Shown here piece after piece: positions 106 through 8,221 of a DNA stretch of 57,258 nucleotides; position 1 is the stretch's first letter; every line of letters starts with the position of its first letter. Position numbers and translations under genes: made by a program. The notes below the pieces were generated by a model. That model was not told where the DNA came from and did no database searches. It saw nothing but the letters and a program-made list of their open reading frames with translations. The stretch comes from Acidilobaceae archaeon (lineage in GTDB: Archaea > Thermoproteota > Thermoprotei_A > Sulfolobales > Acidilobaceae): assembly GCA_027080775.1 (NCBI GenBank), contig JALWPV010000048.1, forward strand, positions 1-57,258, read 5' to 3'.

Positions 106-3100
106 ATGTCGAGGGCAAGGGTAATTGCATCGCTGGCACTCGCGCTGCTCATGATAGCGGCGCCCCTAATGGCGCTCTATCACGCACCGACCGCGGCAGC
201 GCTACAGCCTAACACGACGATCAAGGTCTACCCCTACAAGATAGTCAAGGGCCAGGACGTCCTATTCACCGTAGTACAGACAGGCGGCGCCTTCACCCCC
301 GGCGCTACCCTATACGTGAAGGTGAAGAACCAGGACTCCTGGGGCACCGGCGACGGCTATGCCTGGATAGGCCTACCCTCAGGCCAGTACAAGATACCCA
401 AGGGCTCCTACTTCTACCTACCAGCCAACTACTATGACACAGACCTAGAGGGCTCGAACAACCTCAACACGGGAAGCGCCTACTTCCTTGTCTCAGACAG
501 CTCCGATGGCAGCAGTGGAGTGACGGGCGCGCAGATAACCGTTGAGAGCGGGAGCGTGCCCTACATCAGCGTGGGTGTGCCGCCCACCAGCGCTGCTTCC
601 TATATGCCGAGCGATATACTAGCTATATCTTACACCACTAACTCGCTCCCAGAGTTCACTGTCAACGCTAAGCCCTTCGAGTACTCGCCCGGCAGCGTGG
701 TGACACTCTACTACTACGTGCCCGGTAACACCGTCTACTTCTACTGGGACTACTACGGAGGCCAGCTTCTAGCAACAGCTAAGGGCGGCGTAGGCGAGGT
801 CCACATAAAGGTGCCCGACGCTCCCGAGGGCTTCCACTTCATAGTAGCCGTGAGCGACACTGGCTACGGAGCCTTCAACGTGATATACGTGAAACCCGAG
901 CTGATAGCGAGCCACTTCTCCATAGCTGGCGTAGCAAATGAGACCGTGACCTTCACAGGCAGGGGCTTCCCAGCCAACGCCGAGCTAGACACCACCCAGT
1001 ACGTGACGCTAACAGTCTATGACGGCGTCAACACCGGCACCATGAGGGCCCAGATAATCTCTGGTGGTACAGCAGATGCCCTGGGCAGGATGACACTAAC
1101 GATAAGGCTAATTGACAGCAAGCCTCCGACCGTGAAGGGTGGCCTAGTAGACATAACACTCTACTACAAGTCCGGCGACATAGACGACGTTGTCGGCGGG
1201 ACCTTCCAGCAGGGCCAGCTAGGCCCCGCTGGCGACGGCCAGGACACTATAGAGAATGTGCTAGCCATATCAACCCCCACCGCCTATGGGGACGAGGTCC
1301 TAATCGCTGGCTACTACCCGGGCAGCTACTTCACGCCCGGCACACCGGAGCCCAGCTCTGTCGGCAACTACATCTTTGTAACCGTGGTTAACTTCCCAGC
1401 CAACACTAAGGTCGGCATCTACGTTGGCTACAAGCTAGCGGGCACGCTCGTGACAGACAGCAGGGGAGCCGCCACCGGCTACATAATGGTGCCCGACCTA
1501 CCTGGCGTCGACAACAGCGGCACCCAGATAACCTACACGGTCAGGGCTCTAGCCCAGGACCCCAAGACCCATGGCACCCTAGTCGGAGTGGCCGCCAACG
1601 GCCAGGACTATATGATAACCATAAGCACTGACGCTGAGGCCTACTACGCGCCTTCGGGCTACGGCGCCTACGGTGACTACCTAGCAAGCGGCCAGCACAC
1701 GGTCACCGTGGAGATCTACGGCCTCTCACCCTTCGCCAAGGTAGACATCTATGAGGACATAACGGGCCTAGGCACAATCAACATACTGGACTTCGCCGAC
1801 GTATACCAGCCCGTGGTTCTAGAGGGAAGTGAGACCCCCTACTACTTCGTGGCAAATGCTGACGGCGTACTCGAGGTCAAGTACACCGTATCGTACCTAA
1901 CGCTATTCGACATACTCGGCGCCGCCTATGGCAACACCGGTGACAATGTGACGGTCTACGTTGACGCCACAACAGCAAGCGGCACCCCGCTGCTGACCAA
2001 CTACAAAGTGCTCACCTACCACATGATATTCCCCGCATACGGCGAGATAACCCAGGTAATTAGCTCCCCAGCCAACATAACACCCGCGCTCGACTCAGCA
2101 GGGCCCTTCCAGGTAATCCACCCAGGCGACTACATCGAGGTGCAGTTCTACAACCTAGTGCCTGGCACCTGCTACACTCTAACGCTCAACGGCGCCCCCG
2201 TGCAGCTCTACGACACCACCAACGCGCCGGTCTCCTGCGTGAAGGCAGACAACACTGGCACCATAACTGCCAGGTTCACGGTACCCAACAGCAGGTCAGT
2301 CATAGGCTTCGACGAGGTCGACGTTGTATACCTATCCGGAGTCCTACAGGGCCAGAGCGCTGGCTCCCACCTCTTCATAGCCTCGAGCCCGAGGGAGGAC
2401 CTCTACGGAACCGCCAAGGTCTTCGTATTCCCAACTGAGGCCAGCCCCGGCGACACGATATACATCGTGGGCGTGAACTTCGAGTCCAACGAGAACCTAA
2501 TAGGCGGCTTCTCCACAATCGGCACCCCGCAGAGTGGTACCGCTGACGCCCACGGCGCTGTAGCATTCAGCGTCACGGTGCCCAACCTGCCTGCTGGTAC
2601 CTACACGGTCTACATCGAGAGGACCGTCACCTACGAGACCTTCAACGCCATAATACAGATCGTGCCCAAGGTGGTAAGCGTCTCCTCGTCAAGCGTGCTG
2701 ACAGTGCTCTACAAGGCGGCTGGCCAGACCGTGAGCCTCCAGGTGGTTGGCGTCGAGCCCAACAGGGCCTACATGGTGTACTGGAGCGACAACCCCAACG
2801 TGCTGGGCGAGCCAATAACCAGCACTGGCGTCCCCGGCGTTGGGACCCCGCTCACCTGGTTCAGCGACTCCAACGGCGAGCTAACTGTGACCTTCACCGT
2901 GCCCTTCGGAGTAATAGGCAAGGCCTACTACGCAACCATAGTCCCCGCTGACAACCCGACGACCGCCATACTACCGCCTATAGAGGTTAAGATACTCCCG
3001 GCGCCATACTTCGACGTCGAGGAGTCGCCATACGTCATACCCGGCCAGGTGTTCAGTGTCGACTTCAACCTCACTGGAGCACTGGCCGACACTGCTACGG

Positions 3101-4731
3101 GCCTCTACAAGCTGTTCCCAAGCTTCTACAACACCAGCCTGCAGCAGGCTGACCTAACAGACATGATAAACTACTTCGTGGCCAATGGCAGGGCCTTCGC
3201 CATAATAACGATGCCCGACGGCAGCCACGACGTAGTACCGGCCACAATGCAGCCCATAGGCAATGGCATGCTGAGGATATCCTTCAAGGTGCCCAACGCC
3301 CAGGAGAGCGGCGTCATAGGCCTCGAGATAGGCTTCGCCCTAACCACGGTGCCCTCCATCTGGAACACCAGCAGCCAGTTCGACTACCCGCTCTACAACA
3401 CAGCCTACACCCAGCTCACAGTGGGCGGCCTCGAGCTAGTGCCCGGCGGCGGCATATTCCTGACTAGCGTGAGCGGCCAGCTGGCTACCGTCGTGAACAC
3501 CGTCAACTCGGCCGTGCAGGTGATAACCACCACCGTGCAGGAGATGAAGCCCGTCATAATGAACATAAGCGACACCGTTGCCTACATCAACACAACCCTA
3601 GGCGTAATGACCGCCAAGCTAGACGAGATAGAGGGCATGATAAGCGACTCCACCGCCAAGCTGGTGCAGAAGGGCGACGAGATCATGGCTGAGATCGACT
3701 CGCAGAGCGGCCAGGTGCTCATGGAGCTGGACGCCCTAGCCAAGCTAGTGAACGGCGCCTACGTGAACCTAACCAGCGGCCAGGCCGAGATAATGACGAG
3801 CCTAGGCGAGATCAACATGAGCATAGGCGACCTCGCCACCTTAATACACAGCATGGGCAACAACGTGATGGCAGAGATTGATGCAGTCAACGCGAGCCTA
3901 GCCAAGATAGTGGTGAGCGAGGGCGACCACGTGATAGCCGAGCTATCCGTGCTAGTCAACCAGCTACAGCCCCTGATAACCAGCCTCAACGGCACCATAG
4001 CGACTCTCCAGACCAGCATAGGGGAGCTGCAGGCCAACGTGACACAGCTACTAGCCGGCCAGGCCACCATAGAGAAGCTTGTGGTCAACCAGAGCGGCGC
4101 AGTGATAGCCGTCATCAAGACAACTGCTGGCCAGATGAACGCCACCCTAGCCTCCGCCCTAGAGATGCTGGGCGAGGGCCTGGCCAACGTGACCTCCCAG
4201 GCAATGAGCCAGCTACAGGCCATATCCAACAAGATAGACACCGCTAGCGGTGCCCTATCCAGCAAGCTAGACTCCGTGTTGGCAGCCGTCAACAACGTGA
4301 ACAGCGCCGTCTCAACTCTGGGCGACAAGCTAGACAGCCTCTCCAGCGCTGTCTCAACCCTAGACTCCAAGGTTGGCAGCCTAAGCGCCGCAGTCAGCAC
4401 GGTGAGCGGTAAGCTAGACACCGTCTCCAAGAAGCTAGGCGACATCTCAACGAGCCTAAGCGATGTCTCCGGCAAGGTGACAACCATACAGAGCAACGTG
4501 GCCGACGTGAAGAGCACTCTAAGCGACGTGAAGAGCACCGTGAGCAGCATATCCAGCCAGCTGAGCAGCCTATCCAAGAACGTGAACAGCCTGAGCAGCA
4601 AGGTAGACAAGGCCACCACTGAGAGCAGCGCAGCCAAGAGCAGGGCAACAGTGCTAGGCGGCACGACCGCTGGCCTAGTCATAGTCAACATAATCATAAC
4701 AGCCCTCGCTATGGCGAGGAGGCCAGAGTAG
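106..4731 (+). CDS. Giant S-layer / tetrabrachion-like surface protein
   Basis: A 1541-residue secreted surface protein, probably the main S-layer subunit. Residues 1-30 are a signal peptide (MSRARVIASLALALL then a hydrophobic core). Residues ~35-1110 are Gly/Tyr/Thr/Pro-rich beta-type repeats with many N-x-S/T sequons. From ~1114 to ~1510 the composition changes to Ala/Ser/Leu/Val heptads typical of a long parallel coiled coil. A hydrophobic segment (~1515-1533) and a short basic tail (ARRPE) anchor the C-terminus in the membrane. This order, globular head then stalk then anchor, resembles tetrabrachion of Staphylothermus and crenarchaeal SlaA/SlaB designs, with both parts in one chain. The ATG at 106 follows an aggtga ribosome site. 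Confidence 0.85.
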   Translation: MSRARVIASLALALLMIAAPLMALYHAPTAAALQPNTTIKVYPYKIVKGQDVLFTVVQTGGAFTPGATLYVKVKNQDSWGTGDGYAWIGLPSGQYKIPKGSYFYLPANYYDTDLEGSNNLNTGSAYFLVSDSSDGSSGVTGAQITVESGSVPYISVGVPPTSAASYMPSDILAISYTTNSLPEFTVNAKPFEYSPGSVVTLYYYVPGNTVYFYWDYYGGQLLATAKGGVGEVHIKVPDAPEGFHFIVAVSDTGYGAFNVIYVKPELIASHFSIAGVANETVTFTGRGFPANAELDTTQYVTLTVYDGVNTGTMRAQIISGGTADALGRMTLTIRLIDSKPPTVKGGLVDITLYYKSGDIDDVVGGTFQQGQLGPAGDGQDTIENVLAISTPTAYGDEVLIAGYYPGSYFTPGTPEPSSVGNYIFVTVVNFPANTKVGIYVGYKLAGTLVTDSRGAATGYIMVPDLPGVDNSGTQITYTVRALAQDPKTHGTLVGVAANGQDYMITISTDAEAYYAPSGYGAYGDYLASGQHTVTVEIYGLSPFAKVDIYEDITGLGTINILDFADVYQPVVLEGSETPYYFVANADGVLEVKYTVSYLTLFDILGAAYGNTGDNVTVYVDATTASGTPLLTNYKVLTYHMIFPAYGEITQVISSPANITPALDSAGPFQVIHPGDYIEVQFYNLVPGTCYTLTLNGAPVQLYDTTNAPVSCVKADNTGTITARFTVPNSRSVIGFDEVDVVYLSGVLQGQSAGSHLFIASSPREDLYGTAKVFVFPTEASPGDTIYIVGVNFESNENLIGGFSTIGTPQSGTADAHGAVAFSVTVPNLPAGTYTVYIERTVTYETFNAIIQIVPKVVSVSSSSVLTVLYKAAGQTVSLQVVGVEPNRAYMVYWSDNPNVLGEPITSTGVPGVGTPLTWFSDSNGELTVTFTVPFGVIGKAYYATIVPADNPTTAILPPIEVKILPAPYFDVEESPYVIPGQVFSVDFNLTGALADTATGLYKLFPSFYNTSLQQADLTDMINYFVANGRAFAIITMPDGSHDVVPATMQPIGNGMLRISFKVPNAQESGVIGLEIGFALTTVPSIWNTSSQFDYPLYNTAYTQLTVGGLELVPGGGIFLTSVSGQLATVVNTVNSAVQVITTTVQEMKPVIMNISDTVAYINTTLGVMTAKLDEIEGMISDSTAKLVQKGDEIMAEIDSQSGQVLMELDALAKLVNGAYVNLTSGQAEIMTSLGEINMSIGDLATLIHSMGNNVMAEIDAVNASLAKIVVSEGDHVIAELSVLVNQLQPLITSLNGTIATLQTSIGELQANVTQLLAGQATIEKLVVNQSGAVIAVIKTTAGQMNATLASALEMLGEGLANVTSQAMSQLQAISNKIDTASGALSSKLDSVLAAVNNVNSAVSTLGDKLDSLSSAVSTLDSKVGSLSAAVSTVSGKLDTVSKKLGDISTSLSDVSGKVTTIQSNVADVKSTLSDVKSTVSSISSQLSSLSKNVNSLSSKVDKATTESSAAKSRATVLGGTTAGLVIVNIIITALAMARRPE

Positions 4732-4738
4732 CCAGCAC

Positions 4739-5031
4739 GGTCATAACCCAAATCCCCACTATTTTTAATGTTTTTAATTTATATTAATTTATGTTTCTTC
4801 TAGTCTATTTCTAATTAATGAGGCAGTTTGGCCTGACGCTGCATCTGGCTCCCCCAAGCCGCTATGAAACCGCGAGCTGACTAAGATCGACATAGACAGA
4901 TAACACATGAGGATCGGGGAACCCTCTTCCCTCGGCGTTAAATAGGGCCAACACCTACTAAACCCCGAGTAGGGCACCCTCCACTGGGGTTCGACCGGGG
5001 GAGTGCCTAGCCCCCCCCGGGGTGTGGGGGA
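4739..5031. other. Intergenic region: T-rich terminator and promoter
   Basis: About 290 bases without a gene. Positions 4755-4810 are strikingly A/T-rich with several T runs, which fits an archaeal oligo-T terminator for the S-layer transcript. A TATA-like ttaaata at 4938-4944 could drive the next gene at 5032. A TTCGA motif near 4990 resembles a tRNA T-loop, but no tRNA can be folded around it. Confidence 0.5.
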
Positions 5032-5820
5032 GTGGTCGTATCAGTCGAGATCTCCGGCATCCTCGAGGAGAGGCTCCGGAGGCTCGTGGATCTAGGCATT
5101 TACGCTACCGTGGCGGAGGCTGTTAGGGAGGCTGTTAGGGATTTCCTGAGGAAGGTTGACCTCAAGGATATAGCGTTCAACCTCTACGTCTCCCGGGGGG
5201 CTAGCTTCCAGTATGTTGCTGAGTTCACTGGGGAGACCTTTGACGCCCTTATAGACTACTTTATCTCGCGGGGTGTGATACCGCTCATCGGGGTGTCCAC
5301 GCGGGAGGATCTCGTGATACTCGAGCCTGGCCCCTACGTGCTGGATGGGCTCACGGTCTACGTGGCTTACAAGGCGGGGCTAGTCGATGCTATGGTCGAG
5401 CTCCGAGAGCTGGGCTATAGGTTCATTGCTCCCCGCAGTGTAGAGGGTCTCGTAGAGCTTCTCGAGGCTAAGAGGCTGGCCCAGGGCCTCCTAGAGGCTG
5501 GCGTCGTGGAGTTCATGCAGGCCAAGCCCTCCAGGGCTCCCTCGGATCTGGTGAGCGCTCAGGAGGCCTCCGCTGTAGCCCTAGCGAGGAGCCGGGGATT
5601 CGTGTTGCTCAGCGATGACTCCCGCACAAGAGGTTACGCTAGGAGCAGAGGCGTCCGAGCTTATAGCCTGGCATCTCTGATATCCACGCTCTGGTCCATA
5701 GGGCGGGAGCCCGTGGAGGACTATGTTTACTCCTACAAGAGCGTCCCCGCCCTCCTGCCGGAGGAGATGCTTAGAAGCCTGATGGGCCTCGAGGAGCGCG
5801 TTAGGGGAGAAAGGGCTTGA
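5032..5820 (+). CDS. Fused RHH-UPF0175 antitoxin and PIN (DUF3368-like) toxin
   Basis: 262 residues in three parts. Residues 1-42 look like a ribbon-helix-helix DNA-binding domain (VSVEISGILEERL, then EAVREAVRDFL). Residues ~45-88 match the UPF0175 small-antitoxin pattern, ending in SRGVIPLIG. Residues ~93-217 look like a PIN nuclease of the DUF3368 type: D105 in the first strand, a PRSVEGLVELL helix, E178 in the AQEASAVALA motif, and D195/D196 in LLSDDSRTRGYARSRGV. UPF0175 and DUF3368 are usually separate neighbouring genes forming a toxin-antitoxin pair; here they read as one chain. The start is GTG. The last bases overlap the TTG start of the vWA gene, so the two are probably translated together. 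Function as a toxin is inferred. Confidence 0.65.
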   Translation: MVVSVEISGILEERLRRLVDLGIYATVAEAVREAVRDFLRKVDLKDIAFNLYVSRGASFQYVAEFTGETFDALIDYFISRGVIPLIGVSTREDLVILEPGPYVLDGLTVYVAYKAGLVDAMVELRELGYRFIAPRSVEGLVELLEAKRLAQGLLEAGVVEFMQAKPSRAPSDLVSAQEASAVALARSRGFVLLSDDSRTRGYARSRGVRAYSLASLISTLWSIGREPVEDYVYSYKSVPALLPEEMLRSLMGLEERVRGERA

Positions 5821-6374
5821 GGGACACCGTGATAGCACTAGACGTGTCTCCAAGCATGGGGAAGCCCTCCGAGAGGATAAGGCCCTCGAAGCTCAGCGTG
5901 GCAAGGGACGCCCTCGCCTATGCTCTTTCAAGGCTCTTATCCCGGGTGCCCCGGGCCCGGGTGGGGCTAGTGGTCTTCTATAGGCGGGCCTACCCGCTTC
6001 TGCCCCTAACCTCTGATGCCCGCGCGGCCCTGAAGGCCCTCTCCCTCGCCAGGATCCTCGGGAGCGGCACGGCGCCGGGGGAGGCGGTGATAGAGGCTGT
6101 TAAGCTCCTCAGGAGGTCCCACAGGGAGAAGAGCGTGCTCCTAGTCACTGATGGAGGCTTCAACGAGGGCATACACCTAGAGTACTCGGCGTACTACGCG
6201 CGCTACAGCGGCGTGCGCCTAGACGTCGCCACGCTGGGCGAGGAGCCCCACGGCAGGGATAGGGCCTCGATAGAGGAGGCGGTGAAGCTTACTGGGGGCA
6301 CCTGGCTACACGCCTCGAAGAGGGAGGAGGTATACTCCGTACTATCTAAGATCCTAGCCCCTCCCGGGGCCTAA
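5817..6374 (+). CDS. von Willebrand factor A domain protein with complete MIDAS
   Basis: A 185-residue protein that is almost entirely one vWA domain. The metal-ion-dependent adhesion site is complete: D9, S11 and S13 in ALDVSPSMG, T85 in LGSGTAPGEA and D112 in LLVTDGGF. Such proteins bind a partner through a divalent metal and often work beside an AAA+ ATPase or as stand-alone scaffolds; no ATPase is adjacent here. There is no signal peptide or membrane segment, so it is cytoplasmic. The TTG start overlaps the stop of the upstream antitoxin-toxin fusion (TTGA), suggesting one operon. Its 3' end overlaps the opposite-strand gene at 6346 by 29 bases. Confidence 0.75.
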   Translation: MRDTVIALDVSPSMGKPSERIRPSKLSVARDALAYALSRLLSRVPRARVGLVVFYRRAYPLLPLTSDARAALKALSLARILGSGTAPGEAVIEAVKLLRRSHREKSVLLVTDGGFNEGIHLEYSAYYARYSGVRLDVATLGEEPHGRDRASIEEAVKLTGGTWLHASKREEVYSVLSKILAPPGA

Positions 6375-6903
6375 GGGCATCAAGTATGGCCTGGCCACCC
6401 CTAGAAGGCCTCATGGGGTCCACCTCGACTATCCTAGCCCCGGGGAAGTACCGGGGCAGCCAGGGCCTCCTCTTGGCTGTGTAGGCCACCACCAGGAGGC
6501 CCGCCCCCAGCGACTCGATGTAATGGGCCAGTATTCTCAGGAGGTGGCGGGGCCTTGACTTGAGGCTCCAGAGGAGCACCACCAGCCTCGGCCTCGTGAG
6601 AGCGTTGCTATACTCGGCGATCATATCAGCGGCCTCCCTGAGAGCTGCCACGGGGTTCGGCGCCTCATCGAGTATTGGCGCCTCCTCATATGCCCTGACA
6701 ACGAGCCCGGGATCCCCCTGGGGGTCTACCAGCGGTAGTGCATGGGCCGCGTAGGCGACCAGGCCAGCCAGGACCGCGCGGCCAGCTAGGCCCTCCCTCC
6801 ACGATGCGAGCGTGGCCTGCACCTTGTAGGGCTCCAGGAACCTGCTCTTCTCAGCAGCTACTACTACGAGTGGCACTCCCACCGTGTTACTGCTGGACTC
6901 CAA
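6346..6903 (-). CDS. Hypothetical protein, possible vWA-like fold without MIDAS
   Basis: 185 residues, family not firmly recognised. The pattern (strand VGVPLVVVAAEK, helical middle, then RPRLVVLLWSL, a helix, and GAGLLVVAYTAKR) is what a degenerate vWA or other Rossmann-like alpha/beta domain looks like, but no DxSxS motif or other metal site is visible. It converges on the true vWA gene at 5817 and overlaps its 3' end by 29 bases. A shared TATA-like element at 6943-6950 probably serves both this gene and the DHH gene. The vWA link is a fold-level guess; the reading frame is credible because its codon use matches the neighbours. Confidence 0.55.
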   Translation of the reverse strand: MESSSNTVGVPLVVVAAEKSRFLEPYKVQATLASWREGLAGRAVLAGLVAYAAHALPLVDPQGDPGLVVRAYEEAPILDEAPNPVAALREAADMIAEYSNALTRPRLVVLLWSLKSRPRHLLRILAHYIESLGAGLLVVAYTAKRRPWLPRYFPGARIVEVDPMRPSRGGQAILDALRPREGLGS

Positions 6904-6981: not shown

Positions 6982-8070
6982 GTGCAGGAAGGATCAGCTG
7001 TAGCGGTGATAGGAGACTGGGACGCCGATGGGGTCGTGTCATCGGCGATCATATACTACACCCAGGCTAAGCTGGGAGTCTTCCCACTGAGGGGCAGGCT
7101 CAGGCCTTGGATGTCACCCGGGGGGCCGAGGAGCTTCCCTGAAGTCCTCGCGGGCCTCGGCTGGTGCCCCCAGGTCCTGGTGGTGCTCGACATACCATAC
7201 ACGGAGGAGGTCTCAGGGGGCCTGAGGGACTTCAGGGCCCGGGGATGCGCCAGTAAGATCTACTACTTCGACCACCACCCCTCCACCGTTGACTCTCTAC
7301 CAGAGCTTGAGGAGGAGCTGCGGGTAGAGGTCGTCGTTGGGAGGAGTGCCACGGCCGTGCTGCTCAGGACATTCCTGGCAGGCATGAACGTGAGGCTCAC
7401 CCCCAGGCTTGAGGGCTTCATAAAGGCGGTGGCCGTGCTCGAGGGCTCCAGGAGGAGGGCTGAGAGCCTCATAGGGGATCAGATAGTGGAGGAGAGGCTC
7501 GTGCAGATAGCGGCCTCCATGTCTAAGGCGCTCAACATGATGAGGAGCGAGGATCTCTGGAGGGGCTACGTGGAGTGGCTGGCTAACCCGCTCCCCTTCG
7601 AGGCCCCTAAGATACACTTGCCGGGTATAGAGGGCGAGATAGACCTCATAGAGGCAAGCGTCGACATGGGCAGGGAGGCGGACGAGGAAGCAAAGCAGGT
7701 GGCCATGGACCTAGCCATGGGAGCCGAGAACCTGGGCTACATGAAGTTCGTGGACGCCCGTGGCAAGTGGAAGAAGAGGGGCGCCACCGCCCTGGCAGGC
7801 TACATATACAGGATGACGGGCCAGCCCGTGGCGGTCCTAGTCGAGAAGAGGGACGGCGGGCTCCTCCTCGTGATAAGGGCCCCGCGCGGGGCGGCGGTGA
7901 GGATAGCAGAGATACTCAAGGCAATGAACGCCCTCGAAGACATTGGAGGCCACGGGAACGTAGCAACAGGCAGGCTACCCCCAGGCTTAAGCATAGAGAG
8001 GCTGAAGACCCTCCTCAGGAGAGCCGTCTTCCAGGCCCACCAGGAGCTCTACCAGGAGAACCGCAAGTAA
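6982..8070 (+). CDS. DHH-family phosphoesterase
   Basis: 362 residues. The N-terminal DHH domain has motif I GDWDADGV (D12, D14, D16) and motif III FDHHP (97-100), which bind two manganese ions. A C-terminal DHHA1-type domain ends with IGGHGNVATGRL. The family includes RecJ-like nucleases, oligoribonucleases (NrnA) and nucleotide phosphodiesterases; archaeal members of this size are usually called RecJ-like or GAN-like, but the substrate cannot be told here. The start is GTG. The gene runs towards tRNA-Gly 49 bases downstream. Confidence 0.8.
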   Translation: MQEGSAVAVIGDWDADGVVSSAIIYYTQAKLGVFPLRGRLRPWMSPGGPRSFPEVLAGLGWCPQVLVVLDIPYTEEVSGGLRDFRARGCASKIYYFDHHPSTVDSLPELEEELRVEVVVGRSATAVLLRTFLAGMNVRLTPRLEGFIKAVAVLEGSRRRAESLIGDQIVEERLVQIAASMSKALNMMRSEDLWRGYVEWLANPLPFEAPKIHLPGIEGEIDLIEASVDMGREADEEAKQVAMDLAMGAENLGYMKFVDARGKWKKRGATALAGYIYRMTGQPVAVLVEKRDGGLLLVIRAPRGAAVRIAEILKAMNALEDIGGHGNVATGRLPPGLSIERLKTLLRRAVFQAHQELYQENRK

Positions 8071-8119: not shown

Positions 8120-8195
8120 GCGGCCGTCGTCTAGCCTGGACTAGGACGCCGGCCTTCCAAGCCGGCGATCCCGGGTTCAAATCCCGGCGGCCGCA
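8120..8195 (+). tRNA. tRNA-Gly (anticodon TCC)
   Basis: All arms fold: acceptor GCGGCCG/CGGCCGC (8120-8126 with 8188-8194), anticodon stem CCGGC/GCCGG around loop CTTCCAA with anticodon TCC at 8156-8158, and T arm CCGGG-TTCAAAT-CCCGG. The discriminator is A8195 and CCA is encoded at 8196-8198. No intron. A TATA-like gcataaag at 8081-8088 lies at a plausible distance upstream. Confidence 0.95.
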
Positions 8196-8221
8196 CCATA
8201 GTAGTCAGAGAAAGGAAGGCG

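Follow-up and report, generated by a model that had tools for sequence, protein, structure and literature searches.

Why would an archaeon keep a toxin and its antitoxin in one polypeptide? UPF0175 (COG2886) antitoxins and DUF3368 PIN toxins have been described as toxin-antitoxin (TA) pairs (Makarova et al. 2009, PMC2701414). In the window, by which we mean the whole analysed stretch of 57,258 nucleotides from an Acidilobaceae archaeon (contig JALWPV010000048.1), a single gene appears to carry both. The original prediction, made from this DNA alone, described a ribbon-helix-helix (RHH), a UPF0175 and a PIN part in one chain of 262 residues, stated that the two families usually occupy adjacent genes, and offered two mechanisms, a self-inhibited nuclease or a domesticated regulator. 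It named profile comparison with PF11848 (DUF3368) and UPF0175, structure prediction, and a search for the same fusion in other Desulfurococcales as ways of checking this. The coordinates of the locus are collected in Table 1.

Table 1. Features of the fusion locus (window positions)
Feature	Position	Strand	Remarks
S-layer-like surface protein	106..4731	+	1541 aa; signal peptide, C-terminal coiled coil, TM anchor
Conserved 104-bp element upstream of fusion gene	4928..5031	+	TATA-like TTAAAT at 4938-4943
RHH-UPF0175-PIN fusion gene	5032..5820	+	262 aa, GTG start
RHH domain, residues 1-42	5032..5157	+	
UPF0175/COG2886-type helix-turn-helix (HTH), residues 43-87	5158..5292	+	
Short linker, residues 88-100	5293..5331	+	Apparent shortened counterpart of antitoxin C-terminal tail
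PIN domain, DUF3368 type, residues about 101-226	5332..5709	+	Profile comparison, AF2, Foldseek
C-terminal extension, residues 227-262	5710..5817	+	Conserved 'iP...P' motif (P239, P243), variable end
D105	5344..5346	+	PIN acid 1
E178	5563..5565	+	PIN acid 3, invariant; 'GE' glutamate of DUF3368
D196	5617..5619	+	PIN acid 4, invariant
VWA1, von Willebrand A domain protein	5817..6374	+	Intact MIDAS (DxSxS, TDG); TTG start overlaps fusion stop
VWA2, diverged VWA paralogue	6346..6903	-	No MIDAS

The three-part chain is real, as judged by profile comparison, an AF2 model, Foldseek and the orthologues, in all of which it is undivided. The GTG at 5032 is a sound start, because in the alignment at least 38 orthologues have their start codon (ATG, GTG or TTG) at the same residue. 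Conservation within the protein is highest in the RHH (L18, G22, Y24, E29, R32 and R36 are invariant), and the HTH ends with an invariant P84 and a near-invariant G87. Two family alignments were used, A1 with 43 fusion sequences and a wider one of 30 sequences which includes other families of the class. The RHH of the window protein is matched by the ParD-like antidote 6x0a [phmmer; E 1.4e-3]; Pfam RHH_1 matches 23 of the 43 members of A1, and the NCBIfam ParD-type antidote 28 of the 30 sequences of the wider alignment. PF03683 (UPF0175) recognizes 11/43 members of A1 [best E 0.0017] and PIN-TPR-GreABC 23/43, the latter with a sub-threshold match to the window protein at residues 172-205 [E 5e-5].

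The window protein itself gave no direct match to Pfam UPF0175, and none to PF11848 above the gathering score, and profile-profile comparison (HHalign) was therefore used, against alignments of 23 split UPF0175 and 23 split DUF3368 proteins built from related genomes. The direct part of the proposed profile check thus failed and the family comparison succeeded: the HTH segment matches the split UPF0175 proteins [E 4.8e-8, probability 95%], and the C-terminal half matches the split DUF3368 proteins over the whole PIN domain [E 8.8e-15, probability 98%]. The cross comparisons (N-terminal half with DUF3368, C-terminal half with UPF0175) and 20 column shuffles of each gave probabilities of 3.2% or less; for the DUF3368 comparison the shuffles reached no more than 2.6%. 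The predicted structure (mean pLDDT 90.4) contains a PIN fold, for which the best Foldseek matches are the PIN proteins AF0591, SSO1118, PAE2754 and VapC4 [best E 7e-4], all to the C-terminal half only. The DUF3368 motifs 'GE..A' and 'DD..aR..A' are also present, with E178 and D196 each in 43/43 and R200 in 40/43 sequences of A1.

Three acidic residues, D105, E178 and D195, had been put forward as candidates for the PIN active site. D105 and E178 stand, but D195 does not: position 195 may be D, E, C, S or V among relatives, and the conserved residue is its neighbour D196. E178 and D196 are invariant in the wider alignment as well as in A1; at position 105, 42 of the 43 A1 sequences have D, and four distant members have E. 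All 23 split toxins share E as acid 2, E as acid 3 and D as acid 4, and their acid 1 is N in 14 cases and D in 8. The acid-2 position of the fusion is variable and mostly non-acidic throughout the family. By alignment, then, the fused PIN domain retains three of the four catalytic acids, a different three from those of many split cousins. On these residues it would fall outside the four-acid definition of a catalytic VapC-like PIN nuclease, and it may or may not cut RNA.

The distance from P84, at the end of the HTH, to the first PIN aspartate is 20-22 residues in the clade of the window and 25-30 in most outgroups, whose longer linkers are rich in acidic residues and could plausibly form a short acidic helix resembling an antitoxin tail. 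Lengths and composition together suggest that most of the neutralising tail seems to have been lost in the window clade. UPF0175 antitoxins are small separate proteins with such a tail at the C-terminus, which the fusion is not. It also has neither the two separable adjacent genes nor the mobile, patchy distribution of a type II TA system.

Ordinary split pairs are at hand for comparison. The window genome (G000) carries two of them, at C52:14024-14749 and C27:7330-7954 (L071, L078, L072), which bears out the statement that UPF0175 and DUF3368 PIN proteins usually come from adjacent genes and makes the comparison of one gene with two internal to this genome. The first PIN acid of the C27 pair is N rather than D, like that of 14/22 split toxins of the region. 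Split pairs are patchy across the genomes that hold the fusion, and the fusion is steady and single-copy.

The search for the same fusion in other Desulfurococcales was successful: at least 50 genomes of the class, from several families, contain one full-length copy each. Its closest named relatives are in Acidilobaceae, Staphylothermus and other Sulfolobales/Desulfurococcales MAGs; within the home family, 20 of 25 near-complete genomes possess it, and its occurrence in other families is sporadic. The sole candidate outside the class (G247) turned out to be a split pair of the usual kind. A search for plasmid, phage and viral relatives found none, on which ground a mobile element was rejected, and PADLOC, consulted for defence systems, had no match for the fusion or the VWA genes. 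The gene is under strong purifying selection: comparison of the window with a congener gave a dN of 0.016, a dS of 0.258 and a dN/dS of 0.06, with zero non-synonymous changes in the RHH. In the gene tree the family groups f9, f10, f13 and f15 are monophyletic; since f1 is not, vertical descent would be the main mode of inheritance, perhaps not the sole one.

The most constant feature of the surroundings, absent from the original prediction, is the von Willebrand A protein VWA1. It lies directly 3' of the fusion and on the same strand, overlapping it or within about 150 nt, at all loci with enough contig (L035, at a contig edge, is outside this count). Its MIDAS residues D9, S11, S13 and TD112G are invariant or nearly so and it has no signal peptide. 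When the two genes were searched for separately in 126 genomes at least 90% complete, 33 had both and 93 had neither; the probability of identical presence sets by chance is 4e-31 if phylogeny is ignored, a value that is too strong since the genomes are related. Matched trees correlate at r 0.76, compared with a permutation maximum of 0.17. Loss, which has occurred in several lineages, always hits the two jointly, and an apparent case within one genus is G105, a complete congener of the S-layer-bearing G065 in which both genes are missing. The module is therefore dispensable. A further VWA paralogue, which has no MIDAS, is found downstream in about 24 loci, on the strand of the fusion in most relatives and inverted in the genus of the window and its sister genera. 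At one locus (L161; G147:C63) the fusion is preceded by another VWA gene with a MIDAS and followed by a distinct RHH-like ORF (4902-5114). Near the module in the window are a gene for a DHH/DHHA1-type phosphoesterase-like protein, below Pfam cut-offs (6982-8070, plus strand), and a tRNA-Gly (8120-8198).

On the other side of the fusion is the gene for the S-layer-like protein, a context which the original prediction also did not consider. The window genome has just one copy of this gene, and its position next to the fusion is thus not due to abundance. The coiled-coil end of the protein has a weak similarity to chain B of PDB 8qox [E 7e-5], which we take to be Sulfolobus SlaB. Matches to viral spike coiled coils in the PDB were weak and were set aside as coiled-coil noise, and an identification as tetrabrachion by way of the solved coiled-coil (stalk) fragment was rejected for want of a match. 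An S-layer-like gene, counting homologues and look-alikes together, adjoins the module in about 18 of the 24 assessable genera. The two share a strand in many genomes of f1 and f9 and are divergent in the genera g4 and g11 and in f10 and f7. In more distant families the adjacent gene encodes a secreted protein, large or small, with detectable homology only in f13. At L173 (G065:C1:1196500-1204500) the surface protein apparently derives from two adjacent ORFs of 657 and 874 codons. The linkage is missing in the genera g5, g9 and g10 of the family and in genus g66 of f9, all of which retain VWA1; the surface layer may therefore not be the target of the module, or not the sole one.

The 104-bp element upstream of the fusion gene is near-identical in the congener, the remainder of the intergenic region having diverged. 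No structured RNA or tRNA was detected upstream of the gene (fold z-score 0.35), and a search of the same-strand loci for an operator common to the fusion and S-layer promoters did no better than shuffles. Candidate palindromic operators, GGAATCCC..GGGATTCC, are found in the divergent intergenic regions between the fusion and surface genes of five genomes (L031, L064, L036, L039 and L040). Their heptamer occurs 7 times in these regions against 0.03 expected per 350 bp, the palindrome of L064 has perfect 13-bp arms, and in G056 two of the four copies of TTGGAATCCC in the genome are the two arms of a single candidate palindrome. The motif is confined to one clade and does not occur in the window; having been found post hoc, it is a lead only.

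How should the module be read? We give an even chance to a domesticated UPF0175/DUF3368 TA module with an N-terminal RHH, serving as a chromosomal DNA-binding regulator with a VWA switch and, in most genera, with the surface gene as its target. The two genes of such a type II pair (COG2886/PIN), whose antitoxin bore an N-terminal RHH, would have been joined in an ancestor of these archaea, and the product would have been retained as a regulator on the chromosome. A dimer of the RHH, together with the HTH, would bind an operator adjoining the module, resulting in autoregulation and, in most genera, in control of the surface-layer gene next to it. Transcripts might be trimmed or bound by the PIN half, or this half might now be a docking domain; the VWA protein may use its MIDAS to bind the PIN/linker face and so switch the complex, a role that would replace antitoxin decay in the split pair. 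The fusion is inherited with its VWA partner without exception, usually beside a gene for a probable surface-coat protein, and so what was once an addiction module seems to have become a regulator of the cell. That it was recruited as a dedicated surface-layer regulator throughout this thermophilic group of Thermoproteota is a more tentative proposal, which we put somewhat short of an even chance.

Between the two mechanisms first suggested for the fusion, the domesticated regulator is favoured because of its single copy, purifying selection, family-wide retention, lack of mobile relatives, obligate VWA partner and linkage to surface genes, although RHH antitoxins autoregulate in ordinary TA systems too. 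Its main rival is a PIN ribonuclease that the antitoxin half inhibits in cis until the VWA protein, a ligand or cleavage sets it free, in a stress or antiviral response. Fused TA proteins of this kind are known (EzeT, PMC4826407), D105, E178 and D196 are conserved at the DUF3368 PIN positions, and the acidic linker of the outgroups is antitoxin-tail-like; but the absence of acid 2 throughout the family and the reduced tail of the window clade weaken it, and the empty PADLOC search, the lack of mobile relatives and a steady inheritance unlike that of the split pairs in the same genomes likewise leave it unlikely. We find quite improbable a housekeeping PIN nuclease of RNA processing or decay, the RHH and HTH binding RNA or protein and the VWA protein acting as assembly factor. 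A co-inherited VWA protein that has no signal peptide would suit such a function, as would low-score Foldseek likenesses of the PIN fold to Utp23/Utp24 and RNase P HARP types and the ribosomal protein genes L6 and L32e that adjoin the pair in one genus. Those neighbours are however limited to that genus, most families of the order lack the fusion, which is therefore not core, and an RHH better conserved than the rest points to DNA binding.

The surface gene might also be a neighbour by chance or by plain conservation of gene order, the module regulating something else, an explanation which overlaps with the others and for which the genera retaining VWA1 after the linkage was lost do argue. We regard it as somewhat doubtful, since the linkage spans families in varied arrangements (on one strand, in divergent orientation, or separated by a subtilase or VWA gene) for which passive synteny is not a ready explanation.

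Several parts of this picture have precedents. Fused TA proteins are known already: EzeT is a zeta toxin fused to its antitoxin, and a Phd-RelE fusion of Ralstonia has also been mentioned (PMC4826407). EzeT, too, has its antitoxin N-terminal and covalently joined; by its description, however, its toxin is an unrelated UDP-GlcNAc kinase, and it has no RHH and HTH, no VWA partner and no linkage to a surface gene. VWA regulators of surface structures are likewise known, in ArnA-ArnB of Sulfolobus acidocaldarius (PMC6509490), where a MIDAS-bearing VWA protein and a second protein control the expression of a cell-surface structure. ArnA is, however, an FHA-domain protein and not an RHH-PIN protein, ArnB is modelled as larger with three domains, and their target is the archaellum. 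Compared with the UPF0175/DUF3368 pairs the fusion has an HTH and a PIN domain that are homologous by profile, but it differs in being one chain with an RHH in front, in the loss of acid 2 and the shortened tail, and in its obligate VWA partner and non-patchy distribution. The neighbouring surface gene recalls tetrabrachion of Staphylothermus marinus, described with the subtilase STABLE and having heavy and light chains that are cut from one product, as well as SlaB (PMC5744192), in its signal peptide, coiled-coil stalk and TM segment; in nine loci it is separated from the module by a subtilase of about 1340 aa. With the stalk fragment unmatched, its identity is a candidate one.

The combination of an RHH-UPF0175-PIN fusion with a VWA protein was not reported in the open-access literature that we searched, most subscription papers lying outside it. 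The fusion is a clear and phylogenetically deep case of TA domestication, in which the two genes were fused, the tail was shortened, part of the catalytic set was lost and an obligate partner was gained. Little on the control of S-layer genes in these archaea was found in the open literature searched. If the link to the surface layer is true, the fusion would be a candidate regulator for them and, since the genes for this regulator, its partner and its candidate target are neighbours, the question of S-layer control would be directly testable.
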